Source of the DNA: Nocardioides marinus
GTDB lineage: Bacteria; Actinomycetota; Actinomycetes; Propionibacteriales; Nocardioidaceae
Direction: 5' to 3'
Assembly (NCBI RefSeq): GCF_013408145.1
Contig: NZ_JACBZI010000001.1
Location: forward strand, 124,001-188,000
DNA: 64,000 nucleotides
In this document: positions 6,476-10,093 of the stretch, one piece after another
Position numbering within the stretch: position 1 is the first letter of the stretch
How the letters are laid out: each line of letters begins with the position of its first letter
Position numbers and translations under genes: made by a program
Notes under the pieces: model-generated
What the model was told of the DNA's origin: nothing
What the model saw: only the letters and a program-made list of their open reading frames with translations
Database searches by the model: none

Positions 6476-6730
6476 ATGGGTCGCTGGGCGGCGGTGCGCG
6501 CGGGGCTGGAGGAGTTCTACGCCGGCCCCTACCGCACCACCATGCGCCGGGCCCGCCGCGACGAGGACGACCTGTTCATGCTGGTCGTGCTGGCCGAGGC
6601 CCTCGGGGTGCCCGACCCTGCGGCGTACTGGTCGGCCGAGCTGCTGCCCGCGACCTACGAGGAGTTCCACGCCTGGCACCGCCGGGTGGGGATGGAGCGC
6701 TCGCCGTTGGACCACGTGGGGTGCTGTTGA
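6476..6730 (+). CDS. small protein with C-terminal Cys-Cys (cory-CC-star type)
   Basis: This 84-residue protein has no signal or membrane segment. It ends in PLDHVGCC directly before the stop, matching the actinobacterial family named for a CC-stop terminus. The body is helical and charged (MRRARRDEDDLFMLVVLAEA, then TYEEFHAWHRRVGMERSP). Only the vicinal terminal cysteines suggest chemistry. Its stop overlaps the start of the ArsA-type ATPase, so the two proteins are probably made in step. I infer that the CC pair hands a thiophilic ligand or a client to the ATPase. The link to CstA upstream is positional only. Confidence 0.75.
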   Translation: MGRWAAVRAGLEEFYAGPYRTTMRRARRDEDDLFMLVVLAEALGVPDPAAYWSAELLPATYEEFHAWHRRVGMERSPLDHVGCC

Positions 6731-7695
6731 GCGGCAGGGGTGACCGCGGGGACCCGCAGCTGCTGCTGGTCTCGGGCAAGGGCGGCGTCGGCAAGACGTC
6801 GGTCTCGTGCGCGGTCGCCCTGAAGGAGGCCCGGGCCGGGCGGCGGGTGCTGCTGGTCTCCACCGACCCGGCGCACAACCTCGGGCACGCGTGGGGTGCC
6901 CCGCTCGGCGACGAGCCGCGGCGGGTCCTGCGCGACGCCGGCCACGTCGACGCCGTGGAGATCGACCCGGCCCTGACCGTGCAGCGGCACCTGCGGACGG
7001 TGGGGGAGACGCTGCGTCGGATGCTGCCCGAGCGGATGCACGCCCCGGCCCAGCAGCACCTCGACCTGGCCCGTGAGGCGCCCGGCACCCACGAGTCGGC
7101 CGTCCTGGAGCGGCTGGCAGAGCTGGTCGTGGGGGCCTGCCACCCCTCCTCGGCGTACGACGTCGTCGTGGTGGACACGGCGCCGACCGGTCACACGCTG
7201 CGGCTGATGGCGCTGCCGGAGCGACTCACGTCGTGGACCGAGGCGCTGCTGGCCAACCGCGACCGCTCCGAGCGCTTCGGGGCCGCGCTGCGCGGCCTCG
7301 GGGCCGGTGAGGAGCACGTCGACCGCGACGCCGAGCTGCGCCGGGTGCTGCTGCGCCGACGCGACCGGTTCGCCGCGCTGCACGAGCTGCTGGTCGACCC
7401 GGCCCGGGCCGGGTTCTGGCTGGTCACGACCGCCGAGCGACTCCCCGTCGCCGAGACCCAGGCCCTGCACACCCAGCTGCGTGCGCTGGGCATCCCGGTC
7501 CGACGGTTGCTGGTCAACCGACGCTCGCCCGCGGACGGTGCGGTGCTCACCGCCCGGCGGGCCGTCGAGGAGCAGCACCTCGCCGTGCTGCGCGAGGCCG
7601 TCCCCGGCGTACCCCTCACCGAGGTCCCGCTCCTCCCCGGCGACCTCACCGGCGAGACCGCCCTCGCCGCCCTGGCCGAGCACCTGGGCGGCTGA
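6721..7695 (+). CDS. ArsA/GET3-family ATPase
   Basis: The 324-residue protein is a single-domain ArsA-type ATPase. It has a deviant P-loop SGKGGVGKTSVSCA (about 18-31), switch I STDPAHNLGHAWG, and the ArsA signature VVVDTAPTGHTLRLM. ArsA relatives power arsenite pumps with ArsB, and GET3 relatives deliver tail-anchored membrane proteins. Neither ArsB nor ArsD is present, and only two cysteines are obvious, so arsenite extrusion is not supported. The start overlaps the upstream Cys-Cys protein: either GTG at 6721 or TTG at 6727, the latter forming a TTGA overlap with the upstream stop. Its partner is probably the Cys-Cys protein. Confidence 0.85.
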   Translation: MLLSGRGDRGDPQLLLVSGKGGVGKTSVSCAVALKEARAGRRVLLVSTDPAHNLGHAWGAPLGDEPRRVLRDAGHVDAVEIDPALTVQRHLRTVGETLRRMLPERMHAPAQQHLDLAREAPGTHESAVLERLAELVVGACHPSSAYDVVVVDTAPTGHTLRLMALPERLTSWTEALLANRDRSERFGAALRGLGAGEEHVDRDAELRRVLLRRRDRFAALHELLVDPARAGFWLVTTAERLPVAETQALHTQLRALGIPVRRLLVNRRSPADGAVLTARRAVEEQHLAVLREAVPGVPLTEVPLLPGDLTGETALAALAEHLGG

Positions 7696-7707: not shown

Positions 7708-7911
7708 TCAGCGGAACGCGCACCCGCTGCTCAGCCCGAGCCGGCGGAAGACCGCGGCCGCGGGGCAGAACCCGGTGACGCTGGACTGCAGCAGGTTGAG
7801 CCCCACGAACGCGGTGAGCAGCAGCCACCACGGTGAGACCAGGGCAGCCAGCAGGGCGCTGACCAGGGTGATGGTGCCCGCGAGGGCGAGCACGGCACGG
7901 TCGAGGTTCAT
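7708..7911 (-). CDS. YgaP-like DUF2892 membrane protein
   Basis: This 67-residue protein has two hydrophobic helices (AVLALAGTITLVSALLAALV and WLLLTAFVGLNLLQSSVTGF). It then has a CPAAAVFRRLGL segment, which matches the transmembrane module found at the C-terminus of the E. coli rhodanese YgaP and as free-standing DUF2892 proteins near sulfur genes. A role in sulfur handling at the membrane is inferred from the family. It is 16 bp downstream of the MMPL gene on the same strand and probably shares its transcript, next to a CstR-like regulator. Confidence 0.8.
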   Translation of the reverse strand: MNLDRAVLALAGTITLVSALLAALVSPWWLLLTAFVGLNLLQSSVTGFCPAAAVFRRLGLSSGCAFR

Positions 7912-7927: not shown

Positions 7928-10093
7928 TCAGTCGTGGGCGAAGGAGATGGTGGGCAGCACCCGGCGCAGCCAGGCCGGCGACCACCAGGCGGCCCTGCCG
8001 GTCAGACGCAGCAGCACCGGCAGCAGCACCAGGCGGACCAGGAAGGCGTCGAGCAGGACCGCGACGCCGAGCACGATGCCCATCTCCTTGGGCGGGATCG
8101 GGCCGGAGAGGGCGAAGGTGAAGAACACCGCCACCATCACCGCGCCGGCGGCGAAGATCACCCGGCCCGAGTGGGCCAGCGAGCCGACCATCGCCTCGTG
8201 CGGGTCACCCGAGCGCTCGTAGTGCTCCTTGGCCGAGGCCAGCAGGAAGACCGTGTAGTCCATCGCGATCGCGAAGATCATCGCGAAGAAGAACACCGGC
8301 GCCCAGGCGTCGAGGAAGCCCTGGCTCTCGAAGCCGAGCAGGTCCGCGCCGTACCCCTCCTGGAAGACCAGGCGGGCCACGCCGAACGCCGCGGCGGTCG
8401 ACAGCAGGCTCACCAGGGTGCCCAGCAGCGAGATCAGCGGGGCCTGCAGCGCGACGAGCAGCAGCAGGAAGCCCAGCGCCAGCACGACGGCCACGACGAT
8501 CGGCGTCGACTCGTCCAGCTGCGACTTCAGGTCGAGGTTCTCGACGGCCGCACCACCGACGAGTGCCGAGGACGGCAGGTCGGCACGGAGCCGGTCCACG
8601 GTCTGGGCGAGCTCGGGGTCGGAGGGGTCGACGGTCGGGACCGCGGTGAACATCTCCAGGTCAGCGCCGTCGGCCGCCTTCATCCCGGGGAGTACGCCGG
8701 CGAGCCCCGGGTCGTCGGCCAGCACCTTCAGCGTGGCAGCGGCCTGGTCGGAGTCGACGACGACCCCGATGGCGCCGGGCGCACCCTCGCCGAGCTCGGC
8801 CTGCACGACGTCGTACCCGACCCGCGCGGACGCGTCCTCCGGCAGCACCTTGATCGAGGGCATGGCGGTCTTCAGGCCGAGGATGGGCGCGGCCAGGGCC
8901 AGCAGCACCAGCAGCGAGACCAGCCCCCACGTCCAGGGGCGTGCCCACAGGCGCTCCCCCCACGCCGCGAACCGCGGCGAGCGGTGCTCGCCGGAGCGCG
9001 ACCAGGGCAGCGAGAACCTGTTGATGCGGTCGTCGAGCCAGCCGAGCACGAGTGGCAGCAACGTCAGCGTCGCGCCGAGCACGAAGACGACCGAGAGCAT
9101 GATCCCGCCGGCCATCGACCGGAAGGACGGCGAGGGCACGAGCATCACCGCCGACAGGGAGATGAGCACGGTGAGACCCGAGAGCAGGACGGCCTTGCCG
9201 GCGGTGTCCATGGTCTGGGCGACGGCCCAGCGCACGCCCTCGGGGCCGGGGTGGGCGGCGCGGGCCGCGCGGTAGCGGACGACGAGGAACAGGGCGTAGT
9301 CGATGCCGAGGGCCAGGGCGAACATCATCGCGAAGTTCATGGCCCAGATGGAGACGGGGACCAGCTGGTTGATGAGCACCAGGGAGCCGGCGGAGGCGAC
9401 CAACCCGGCGAGGGTGAGGATGAGCGGGAGCCCGGCGGCCACGAGGGCGCCGAAGGCCAGCACGAGGATGGCCAGGGTCACCGGCCACGACATCAGCTCG
9501 CTCTTGAGCATGGCCTCGAGGTTGGCGTCGTTGAAGTCGCTCCACAGCAGCGAGGAGCCGGTGGGCGTGACCTCGACGGTGTCGGTGGACAGCGCGGCGA
9601 GCTCCTCCTTCAGGTCGGTCGCCGCGCGCACCATCTCGTTGGTGTCGGCGCCGGCGCCGGCGAGCACGACGCCGGTGTCGCCGTCCTGGGACAGCGTGGC
9701 CCCGGGCTGCGGCGGCACGATCGTCGCGATGCGCGGGTCCTCCTCGAGCAGTGCGGTGACCTCGGCGATGACCTCGGCCCCCTCGCCCTCGGTCACCGGA
9801 CCGTCGCTGGAGCGCACGACCACCTGGATCGCCGAGGAGGCGTTGCCCCCGAAGTGCTCGACGGCCAGGTCGCGGGCCGCGACGGAGTCCGACCCGTCGG
9901 CCTGCCACCCGGCGCCGGAGAGGTCGTGCTCGACCCGGGGGGCGAAGATGCCCAGGCCGACGATGAGCAGGGCCCACACCGCGGCGACGAGGCGGCGGTG
10001 GTCGAGCACCCACGTGCCCAGGCGGCCGAGCGGACCCGGTCCGTTGGGGACCCGTGAGGGGGTCGAGGGTGGGTGGGGGGCGGTGCTGGTCAT
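7928..10093 (-). CDS. MMPL-family (RND superfamily) transporter
   Basis: The 721-residue protein has the duplicated RND plan of the MMPL family: a first helix near the N-terminus, a periplasmic-type loop of about 150 residues, a five-helix block (starting near VTLAILVLAFGALVAAGLPL), then a second helix, loop and block ending near the C-terminus. The motifs ALGIDYALFLVVRYR and IAMDYTVFLLASAKE carry the conserved membrane Asp-Tyr pair used for proton coupling. Such proteins export lipids or hydrophobic compounds; the substrate is unknown. AGGAGGAG precedes the ATG. It faces the DUF302-regulator operon across a shared 106-bp promoter region that contains two operators. Confidence 0.9.
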   Translation of the reverse strand: MTSTAPHPPSTPSRVPNGPGPLGRLGTWVLDHRRLVAAVWALLIVGLGIFAPRVEHDLSGAGWQADGSDSVAARDLAVEHFGGNASSAIQVVVRSSDGPVTEGEGAEVIAEVTALLEEDPRIATIVPPQPGATLSQDGDTGVVLAGAGADTNEMVRAATDLKEELAALSTDTVEVTPTGSSLLWSDFNDANLEAMLKSELMSWPVTLAILVLAFGALVAAGLPLILTLAGLVASAGSLVLINQLVPVSIWAMNFAMMFALALGIDYALFLVVRYRAARAAHPGPEGVRWAVAQTMDTAGKAVLLSGLTVLISLSAVMLVPSPSFRSMAGGIMLSVVFVLGATLTLLPLVLGWLDDRINRFSLPWSRSGEHRSPRFAAWGERLWARPWTWGLVSLLVLLALAAPILGLKTAMPSIKVLPEDASARVGYDVVQAELGEGAPGAIGVVVDSDQAAATLKVLADDPGLAGVLPGMKAADGADLEMFTAVPTVDPSDPELAQTVDRLRADLPSSALVGGAAVENLDLKSQLDESTPIVVAVVLALGFLLLLVALQAPLISLLGTLVSLLSTAAAFGVARLVFQEGYGADLLGFESQGFLDAWAPVFFFAMIFAIAMDYTVFLLASAKEHYERSGDPHEAMVGSLAHSGRVIFAAGAVMVAVFFTFALSGPIPPKEMGIVLGVAVLLDAFLVRLVLLPVLLRLTGRAAWWSPAWLRRVLPTISFAHD

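Follow-up and report, generated by a model that had tools for sequence, protein, structure and literature searches.

Relation to Described Systems

Operons encoding a CstA transporter, a small protein designated CstX, and an ArsA-type ATPase were described in 2010 by Castillo and Saier (PMC2963123). The available part of that paper reports 26 CstA-ArsA associations, 24 of them with CstX, together with parallel trees, ArsA pairs, and CstX pairs; the CstX of archaeal operons has a single predicted transmembrane segment. The authors suggested that CstX links CstA and ArsA, coupling CstA to ATP hydrolysis. In the literature searched, no experimental test of this proposal for an ATP-energised CstA was found and, in the portion that concerns CstX, CstA, and ArsA, the name CstX occurs only in PMC2963123. 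All eight mentions of cysteine in the main text of that paper, as far as it was available, refer to ArsA or arsenite, and the words "vicinal," "thiol," and "histidine" are absent from it.

Another small protein encoded behind cstA, in this case a long one, is YbdD/YjiX (Sel_put, PF04328); YbdD of Escherichia coli has a CC end like that of the small protein described here. According to the available text of PMC5847655, pyruvate uptake falls to 20% of the wild-type level upon deletion of ybdD, as compared with 13% for deletion of cstA and 25% for deletion of both, and YbdD is reported there to be necessary for CstA-dependent pyruvate uptake, with indirect effects allowed for by the authors. In the part of PMC7730263 that was available, the proton motive force is given as the driving force of E. 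coli CstA and BtsT, and driving by ATP is therefore not required for the CstA family. Descriptions of pyruvate or peptide transport were found solely for other CstA proteins (from E. coli and other organisms).

The ArsD-ArsA-ArsB pump, like the locus described here, combines an ATPase of the same superfamily with a carrier and a small protein that has vicinal cysteines; in our locus, however, the ATPase is a single-domain form without the arsenite-binding cysteines, CstA replaces ArsB, and the small protein has no ArsD domain. Get3/TRC40 proteins share their fold, Walker A motif, and switch motifs with the ATPase, but the latter has no conserved cysteine pair, and the small protein has no hydrophobic tail. 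In Get3, a pair of cysteines serves for a zinc-linked dimer.

Gene Organization of the Locus

The window, a stretch of 64,000 nucleotides from Nocardioides marinus, contains a short-form cstA, a gene for a small protein, and an ATPase gene on the same strand (Table 1). The open reading frame of the small protein starts 43 nt after the end of cstA, and the two candidate ATPase starts, GTG and TTG, give overlaps of 10 and 4 nt, respectively, with its end. The initial annotation had noted an 84-residue protein that ends exactly in Cys-Cys and whose stop overlaps the ATPase start, and both observations hold; the C terminus reads ...DHVGCC, and Cys83 and Cys84 are the sole cysteines of the protein. 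The same annotation noted no ArsB, ArsD, or tail-anchored pump nearby, but a membrane transporter, CstA, is encoded right next to the small protein. Directly past the trio, a gene for a small YgaP-like transmembrane protein lies on the opposite strand, adjoined by an MMPL-family transporter gene.

Table 1. Features of the window and of related loci (coordinates preceded by L refer to the locus named; other coordinates are window positions)
Feature	Location	Strand	Remarks
CstA-type transporter, short form, 568 aa	4726..6432	+	PF02554, E 5.6e-135
CC-star small protein (probably CstX), 84 aa	6476..6730	+	NF041419, 119.5 bits (curated cut-off 80)
H65-x-x-H68 motif codons of CC-star	6668..6679	+	pattern H..H...CC-stop in 104/104
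TGC TGT codons, C-terminal Cys83-Cys84 of CC-star	6722..6727	+	CC in 104/104
TGA stop of CC-star	6728-6730	+	
CC-star end / ATPase start overlap	6721..6730	+	GTG 6721; TTG 6727 possible
ArsA/GET3-type ATPase, single-domain, 324 aa	6721..7695	+	TIGR00345, 206.4 bits (cut-off 135); PF02374
Walker A motif GKGGVGKT of ATPase	6775..6798	+	conservation of at least 95% across 97 ATPases
Small YgaP-like transmembrane protein	7708-7911	-	PF11127
MMPL-family transporter	7928-10093	-	
Two tandem cstA copies before CC-star, Corynebacterium spheniscorum	L144:943-4699		nearer copy directly upstream
Tandem unequal ArsA-type ATPases beside tandem CC-less proteins	L083:3334-5450, L084:7233-9192, L181:2880-4929, L182:64-2029	-	
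SGSGCCG family member	L209:3030-3431	+	others in alignment A7
SGSGCCG family member	L208:3313-3711	-	
SGSGCCG family member	L081:3226-3615	-	

The small protein belongs to the NCBIfam family NF041419, "cory-CC-star" (hereafter CC-star), and a search with the family model gave one match in the window genome. The family is only named in NCBIfam, and the name was not found in the literature searched. CC-star has the size of CstX (∼90 residues) and is encoded with cstA and arsA, as described for CstX; judged by position and size rather than by the sequences of Castillo and Saier, it is probably CstX. The trio is not a new system but a member of the kind described in 2010, with the same gene content, a small protein of ∼90 residues, and a single-domain ATPase of ∼330 residues (PMC2963123, available part). 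The earlier designation of the trio as an uncharacterised ATPase system is thus apt for its function, but not for the operon, which was described in 2010 (PMC2963123, as far as available), or for the small protein, whose family is named in NCBIfam. Under those words, the available main text of PMC2963123 gives no description of the CC end or of an HxxH motif in the small protein.

Conservation of the Gene Unit

CC-star genes were compared in 104 loci that comprise a group of 17 (the window's own included), the best 80 of 101 loci confirmed in named genomes, and seven further loci; these are not all independent, because near-identical species are present, Streptomyces, Corynebacterium, Isoptericola, and Actinomadura are represented many times, and the genome sets may overlap. 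The NF041419 model matched 19 of 197 actinobacterial genomes, the window's own counted, 16 of them over the cut-off; 17 of the 19 have a CC-ending protein with the ATPase next to it, and in 16 of these cstA lies upstream, the remaining one being at a contig end. Among the best 80 of the 101 loci, the CC end and the adjoining ATPase are present in all 80 and an upstream cstA in 79, the last being cut by a contig end. An automatic count had given 78 of 80 for both cstA and the ATPase; in L090 and L132 the ATPase matches overlap and were missed by the distance rule. The seven additional loci agree with this pattern.

Over the whole set, the ATPase directly follows CC-star in 104/104 loci, and 102 have cstA upstream. 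Contig ends cut the remaining two: the contig starts 29 nt before the CC-star reading frame in L129 and 540 nt before it in L015 (genome G105). The order check across genomes proposed in the initial annotation bears out the trio as a real conserved unit. That annotation would have abandoned a link between the CC tail and the ATPase if CC-stop proteins were found mostly without the ATPase; every CC-star protein of the 104 loci has the ATPase, whereas for the other CC-ended neighbor of CstA no ArsA-type gene was found within ∼1.5 kb on each side in the YbdD/Sel_put loci. In a comparison of 26 loci with ∼5 kb on each side, the open reading frames of at least 90 residues that recur in at least three other genera are, for the seven loci listed, all located within the trio or across it, CC-star itself being mostly shorter than this limit.

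The whole trio was also found in two Pseudomonadota, a Luteimonas (L130) and a member of the Granulosicoccaceae (L150), with proteins 50–71% identical to the three of the window. This is probably the result of horizontal transfer and implies that the three genes can be transferred together. Haloferax volcanii, in the control set, gave an NF041419 match under the curated cut-off. In Corynebacterium spheniscorum, two tandem copies of cstA precede CC-star (Table 1).

The CC-star Protein

An alignment of 16 diverse CC-ended members has invariant columns at Gly44, Pro48, His65, His68, Gly72, Cys83, and Cys84, and His65, His68, Cys83, and Cys84 are invariant in 63/63 closer members as well. The pair of cysteines in the tail contains the only cysteines of the protein in 16/16 diverse and 59/63 closer members. 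L013, which repeats L012, was omitted from alignments A1 and A3; alignment A5 took 62 of the 80 loci and alignment A8 took 29.

The CC end in all 104 family members is not attributable to chance. An explanation in which it is a mere by-product of the overlapping ATPase start, with TGC TGC read as (A/G)TG CTG C, draws on the presence of an in-frame ATPase start across the first cysteine codon in the majority of the 80 close loci, but in L003-L009, L011, and L155 the nearest ATPase start is downstream or makes no use of the codon's first two bases, and the cysteine is kept. Because the CC is retained where the overlap differs or is absent, this explanation is almost certainly wrong.

The predicted model of CC-star is of moderate confidence (pLDDT 71.7, pTM 0.43) and has helices at residues 3–42 and 57–70, the second of which would place His65 and His68 one turn apart. 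The window protein has no Pfam match at E ≤ 0.1, its sequence has no match in the PDB, and its model matches no PDB fold at E ≤ 0.001 (two matches at E ≤ 10). The usual transmembrane threshold for the hydropathy of a 19-residue segment is 1.6; the highest value is 1.46 in the window protein, 0.87–1.46 across 16 members, and 1.40–1.74 in four rows of the CC-less relatives discussed below. The CC terminus had also been considered as a recognition tag or a lipidation site; a short tail without hydrophobic character does not resemble that of a GET3 client, and nothing was found that points to lipidation.

The ATPase

The ATPase is matched by the GET3/ArsA/TRC40 profile TIGR00345 (Table 1), whereas it scores only 129.7 bits against TIGR04291 (cut-off 650), with the first half of the profile covered; with 324 residues, it is not the two-domain form of the ArsA arsenite ATPase. 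The predicted model (pLDDT 88.9) has its best fold match in the archaeal TRC40 structure 3zq6 (TM 0.79/0.85), and a Get3(D57N) structure is among the entries found in the fold search. No alignment column has cysteine in >30% of 97 ATPases, and neither the arsenite-binding cysteines of ArsA nor the zinc cysteine pair of Get3 has a counterpart in this alignment. The lack of a conserved cysteine disfavours loading of the ATPase in the manner of ArsA.

Alternatively, the ATPase may be a Get3-like chaperone for assembly or targeting that binds CC-star or nascent CstA and aids insertion or maturation without driving transport. Archaeal TRC40 and Get3 are its nearest folds, it is single-domain like Get3, and its translational overlap with CC-star is tight. 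However, the hydropathy values given above show that CC-star does not end in a hydrophobic transmembrane segment, the zinc cysteine pair of Get3 has no equivalent, and many CstA proteins have no such ATPase nearby, so that we regard this role as possible but doubtful.

CstA Types and Their Partners

The CstA of the window scores 213.1 bits against NF011590, the equivalog model of E. coli CstA, far below the cut-off of 1188. CstA was found in 50 of 197 genomes and Sel_put/YbdD in 16, with the Sel_put gene on the same contig as, and close to, a CstA gene in 14 of the 16 and on a different contig in the other two. The sorting into long and short CstA is our own, made from match lists, and G013, G135, and G155, where only pieces are present, were not taken as short. 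Among the 31 genomes with a short CstA, a set whose weak members are G124 and G194 (partial) and G136 (very divergent), 17 have CC-star and the ATPase, two have a CC-less pair, and 12 have neither. Genome G162 has both kinds of CstA, each with its own partner. Long CstA genes without a detectable Sel_put gene behind them were observed in G093 and G143 (L086, L087).

In a tree of 68 CstA proteins, the window CstA is placed in the CC-star clade, and the five partner labels require five changes, as compared with a minimum of four and a mean of 28.8 for shuffled labels; the tree is a quick one built with 25 of the 80 loci, with long-branch warnings and unsure deep joins, and near-copies make the labels cluster. 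The partner labels track the CstA clade, indicating that partner type follows CstA type. Neither CC-star nor the ATPase was found in 54 loci with Sel_put, a long CstA, or a CstA without partner (some of which overlap, and one of which, L222, is without cstA), within flanks of ∼1.5 kb in most loci with Sel_put or a long CstA and up to ∼4 kb in the others, beyond which an ATPase would be missed.

Five close CstA proteins have neither CC-star nor a nearby ATPase; those of G238, G259, G309, and G386 are 48–51% identical to that of the window, and that of G173 is in the same clade. A CstA of the window's type may therefore work without CC-star and the ATPase. His41 of CstA was considered as a CC-star-specific residue, being invariant in 36/36 CstA proteins of the clade and lost in G173, but was rejected since it is kept in three of the five proteins without CC-star.

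PF04328 is absent from the window genome and is not matched by the window CC-star. Homology between CC-star and YbdD was rejected: hhalign gave a probability of 3.6 with the CC alone aligned and, when CC-less rows were included, a chance stretch of just seven columns. YbdD/YjiX thus differs from CC-star in having no profile similarity, no ATPase in the flanks searched, and a CstA of another clade, and the parallel between the two is confined to position and tail. In a single lineage with family code f17 (L026, L029, L031, L033, and L037), the Sel_put proteins terminate in RCP rather than RCC.

CC-less Relatives with Paired ATPases

Four of 396 genomes (G034, G037, G211, and G218) have the gene order cstA-smA-smB-arsA1-arsA2, with two tandem small proteins that lack the CC; the locus is split over two contigs in G034, and cstA is cut by the contig end in G211 and G218. 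None of the eight small proteins has the CC end or the HxxH motif, and a W-K/R-R-R motif is present instead. A profile built from four CC-less relatives matched six of the 396 genomes, these four by two tandem copies each, and the matches in the other two are CC-star proteins, namely that of the window (E 4.4e-8) and that of G162 (E 6.0e-6), which argues that the CC-less relatives are homologous to CC-star. One query found none of them on plasmids.

The two ATPases differ in the same way in all four loci. In arsA1, the switch I Asp is kept (SVDP) and switch II is altered (DLVPLGHALYY), and in arsA2, the switch I Asp, which we take to be at the catalytic position of Get3, is replaced by Asn (STNP). 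The small protein and the ATPase have thus doubled together, and the two ATPases have become unequal. Such a 2:2 co-duplication suggests that the two proteins pair physically. Because relatives without CC and HxxH are still paired with ArsA-type ATPases, it is not the CC that ties the small protein to the ATPase, and the two motifs are not needed for this pairing in general.

This bears on the proposal, made in the initial annotation, that CC-star is an ArsD-like chaperone that supplies the ATPase with a soft metal or metalloid. Vicinal cysteines and an HxxH motif could bind metal, and CC-star adjoins an ATPase of the ArsA family at every one of the 104 loci, but the ATPase has no conserved cysteine, CC-star has no ArsD Pfam match at E ≤ 0.1, no other ars gene was found among seven window proteins scanned, CC-less relatives keep the ATPase, and YbdD has a CC tail without one. 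We consider this proposal very unlikely.

Proposed Arrangement of the Complex

We give an even chance to an arrangement in which the trio forms one transport complex, with CC-star linking the Get3-fold ATPase to CstA and a His/Cys site that acts mainly on the transporter side. CstA would be the membrane carrier, the ATPase a Get3-fold dimer, and CC-star a cytosolic subunit that bridges the two, so that ATP binding and hydrolysis by the ATPase would act by way of CC-star to drive or gate CstA. At the free C terminus of CC-star, His65, His68, Cys83, and Cys84 would make up a thiol or metal site. Instead of feeding the ATPase, this site probably works toward the transporter, where it would be a gate, a sensor, or a docking ligand.

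The retention of the trio, the correspondence between partner and CstA clade, the co-duplication, and the four invariant residues all favor CC-star as a linker, as do the part of YbdD in pyruvate uptake (PMC5847655, as far as available) and the co-evolution and linker idea published in the available text of PMC2963123. A bridge whose His/Cys site is directed mainly toward the carrier is the simplest reading of a CC tail without an ATPase in YbdD and an ATPase without a CC tail in the CC-less relatives. The linker role is weakened by the limitation of the YbdD similarity to the CC, by the indirect effects allowed for in PMC5847655 (available text), and by the ability of Sel_put relatives to end in CP. 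More specifically, CstA could be a secondary carrier that has become energised by ATP through the Get3-fold ATPase and the small subunit, with the HxxH motif and the CC-COOH end as a metal- or redox-sensitive coupling switch, a combination that is unlikely as a whole.

If the 2010 proposal of an ATP-energised CstA is correct, the ATPase superfamily would gain a further kind of carrier beside ArsB, and the occurrence of small CC-tailed proteins next to CstA would in part be explained. The four invariant residues, the CC-less form, and the two other dithiol neighbors of CstA provide sharp mutants and natural controls for the 2010 proposal.

A Third Dithiol Family behind cstA

In deeper actinobacterial lineages, a family of proteins of ∼135 residues with an SGSGCCG motif (or a close variant) and a DPRN motif is encoded directly behind cstA. 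It is present in 21 of 396 genomes and directly behind cstA in 19; of the remaining two genomes, one has it at a contig edge and the other in two pieces without cstA. In the literature searched, as far as its text was available, no description was found of this neighbor, of the invariant HxxH-CC, or of the absence of the latter from the co-duplicated form. If CstA has indeed become energised by ATP through such a coupling switch, YbdD, CC-star, and the SGSGCCG protein would be separate, apparently unrelated answers to a shared requirement of CstA carriers for a dithiol partner in the cytosol.

In the SGSGCCG members scanned, no family of Pfam or NCBIfam exceeds its cut-off, and the two matches to solved structures (E 0.61 and 1.2) are not believable. 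A different role for the CC tail would be that of a redox switch, the thiols forming or exchanging disulfides, in deeper lineages together with this vicinal-cysteine neighbor, and thereby toggling the transporter. Such a switch would fit the position of the family behind cstA and the weak similarity of seven of 18 members to Thioredoxin_3 (best E 0.02), but these matches are below the cut-off, one member fits BON better (E 0.0013), a profile search of the window genome gave no SGSGCCG protein, and pure thiol chemistry leaves the HxxH motif unexplained. We therefore consider a redox switch decidedly unlikely.

Some deeper members, for example G144, G009, and G060, have no match to the SGSGCCG family. 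The protein follows CstA in all five genomes with a close CstA and no CC-star (G173, G238, G259, G309, and G386), the first of which is one of the 12 short-CstA genomes that have neither partner. In the deeper lineages that do have CC-star, the SGSGCCG gene is usually located between cstA and CC-star.
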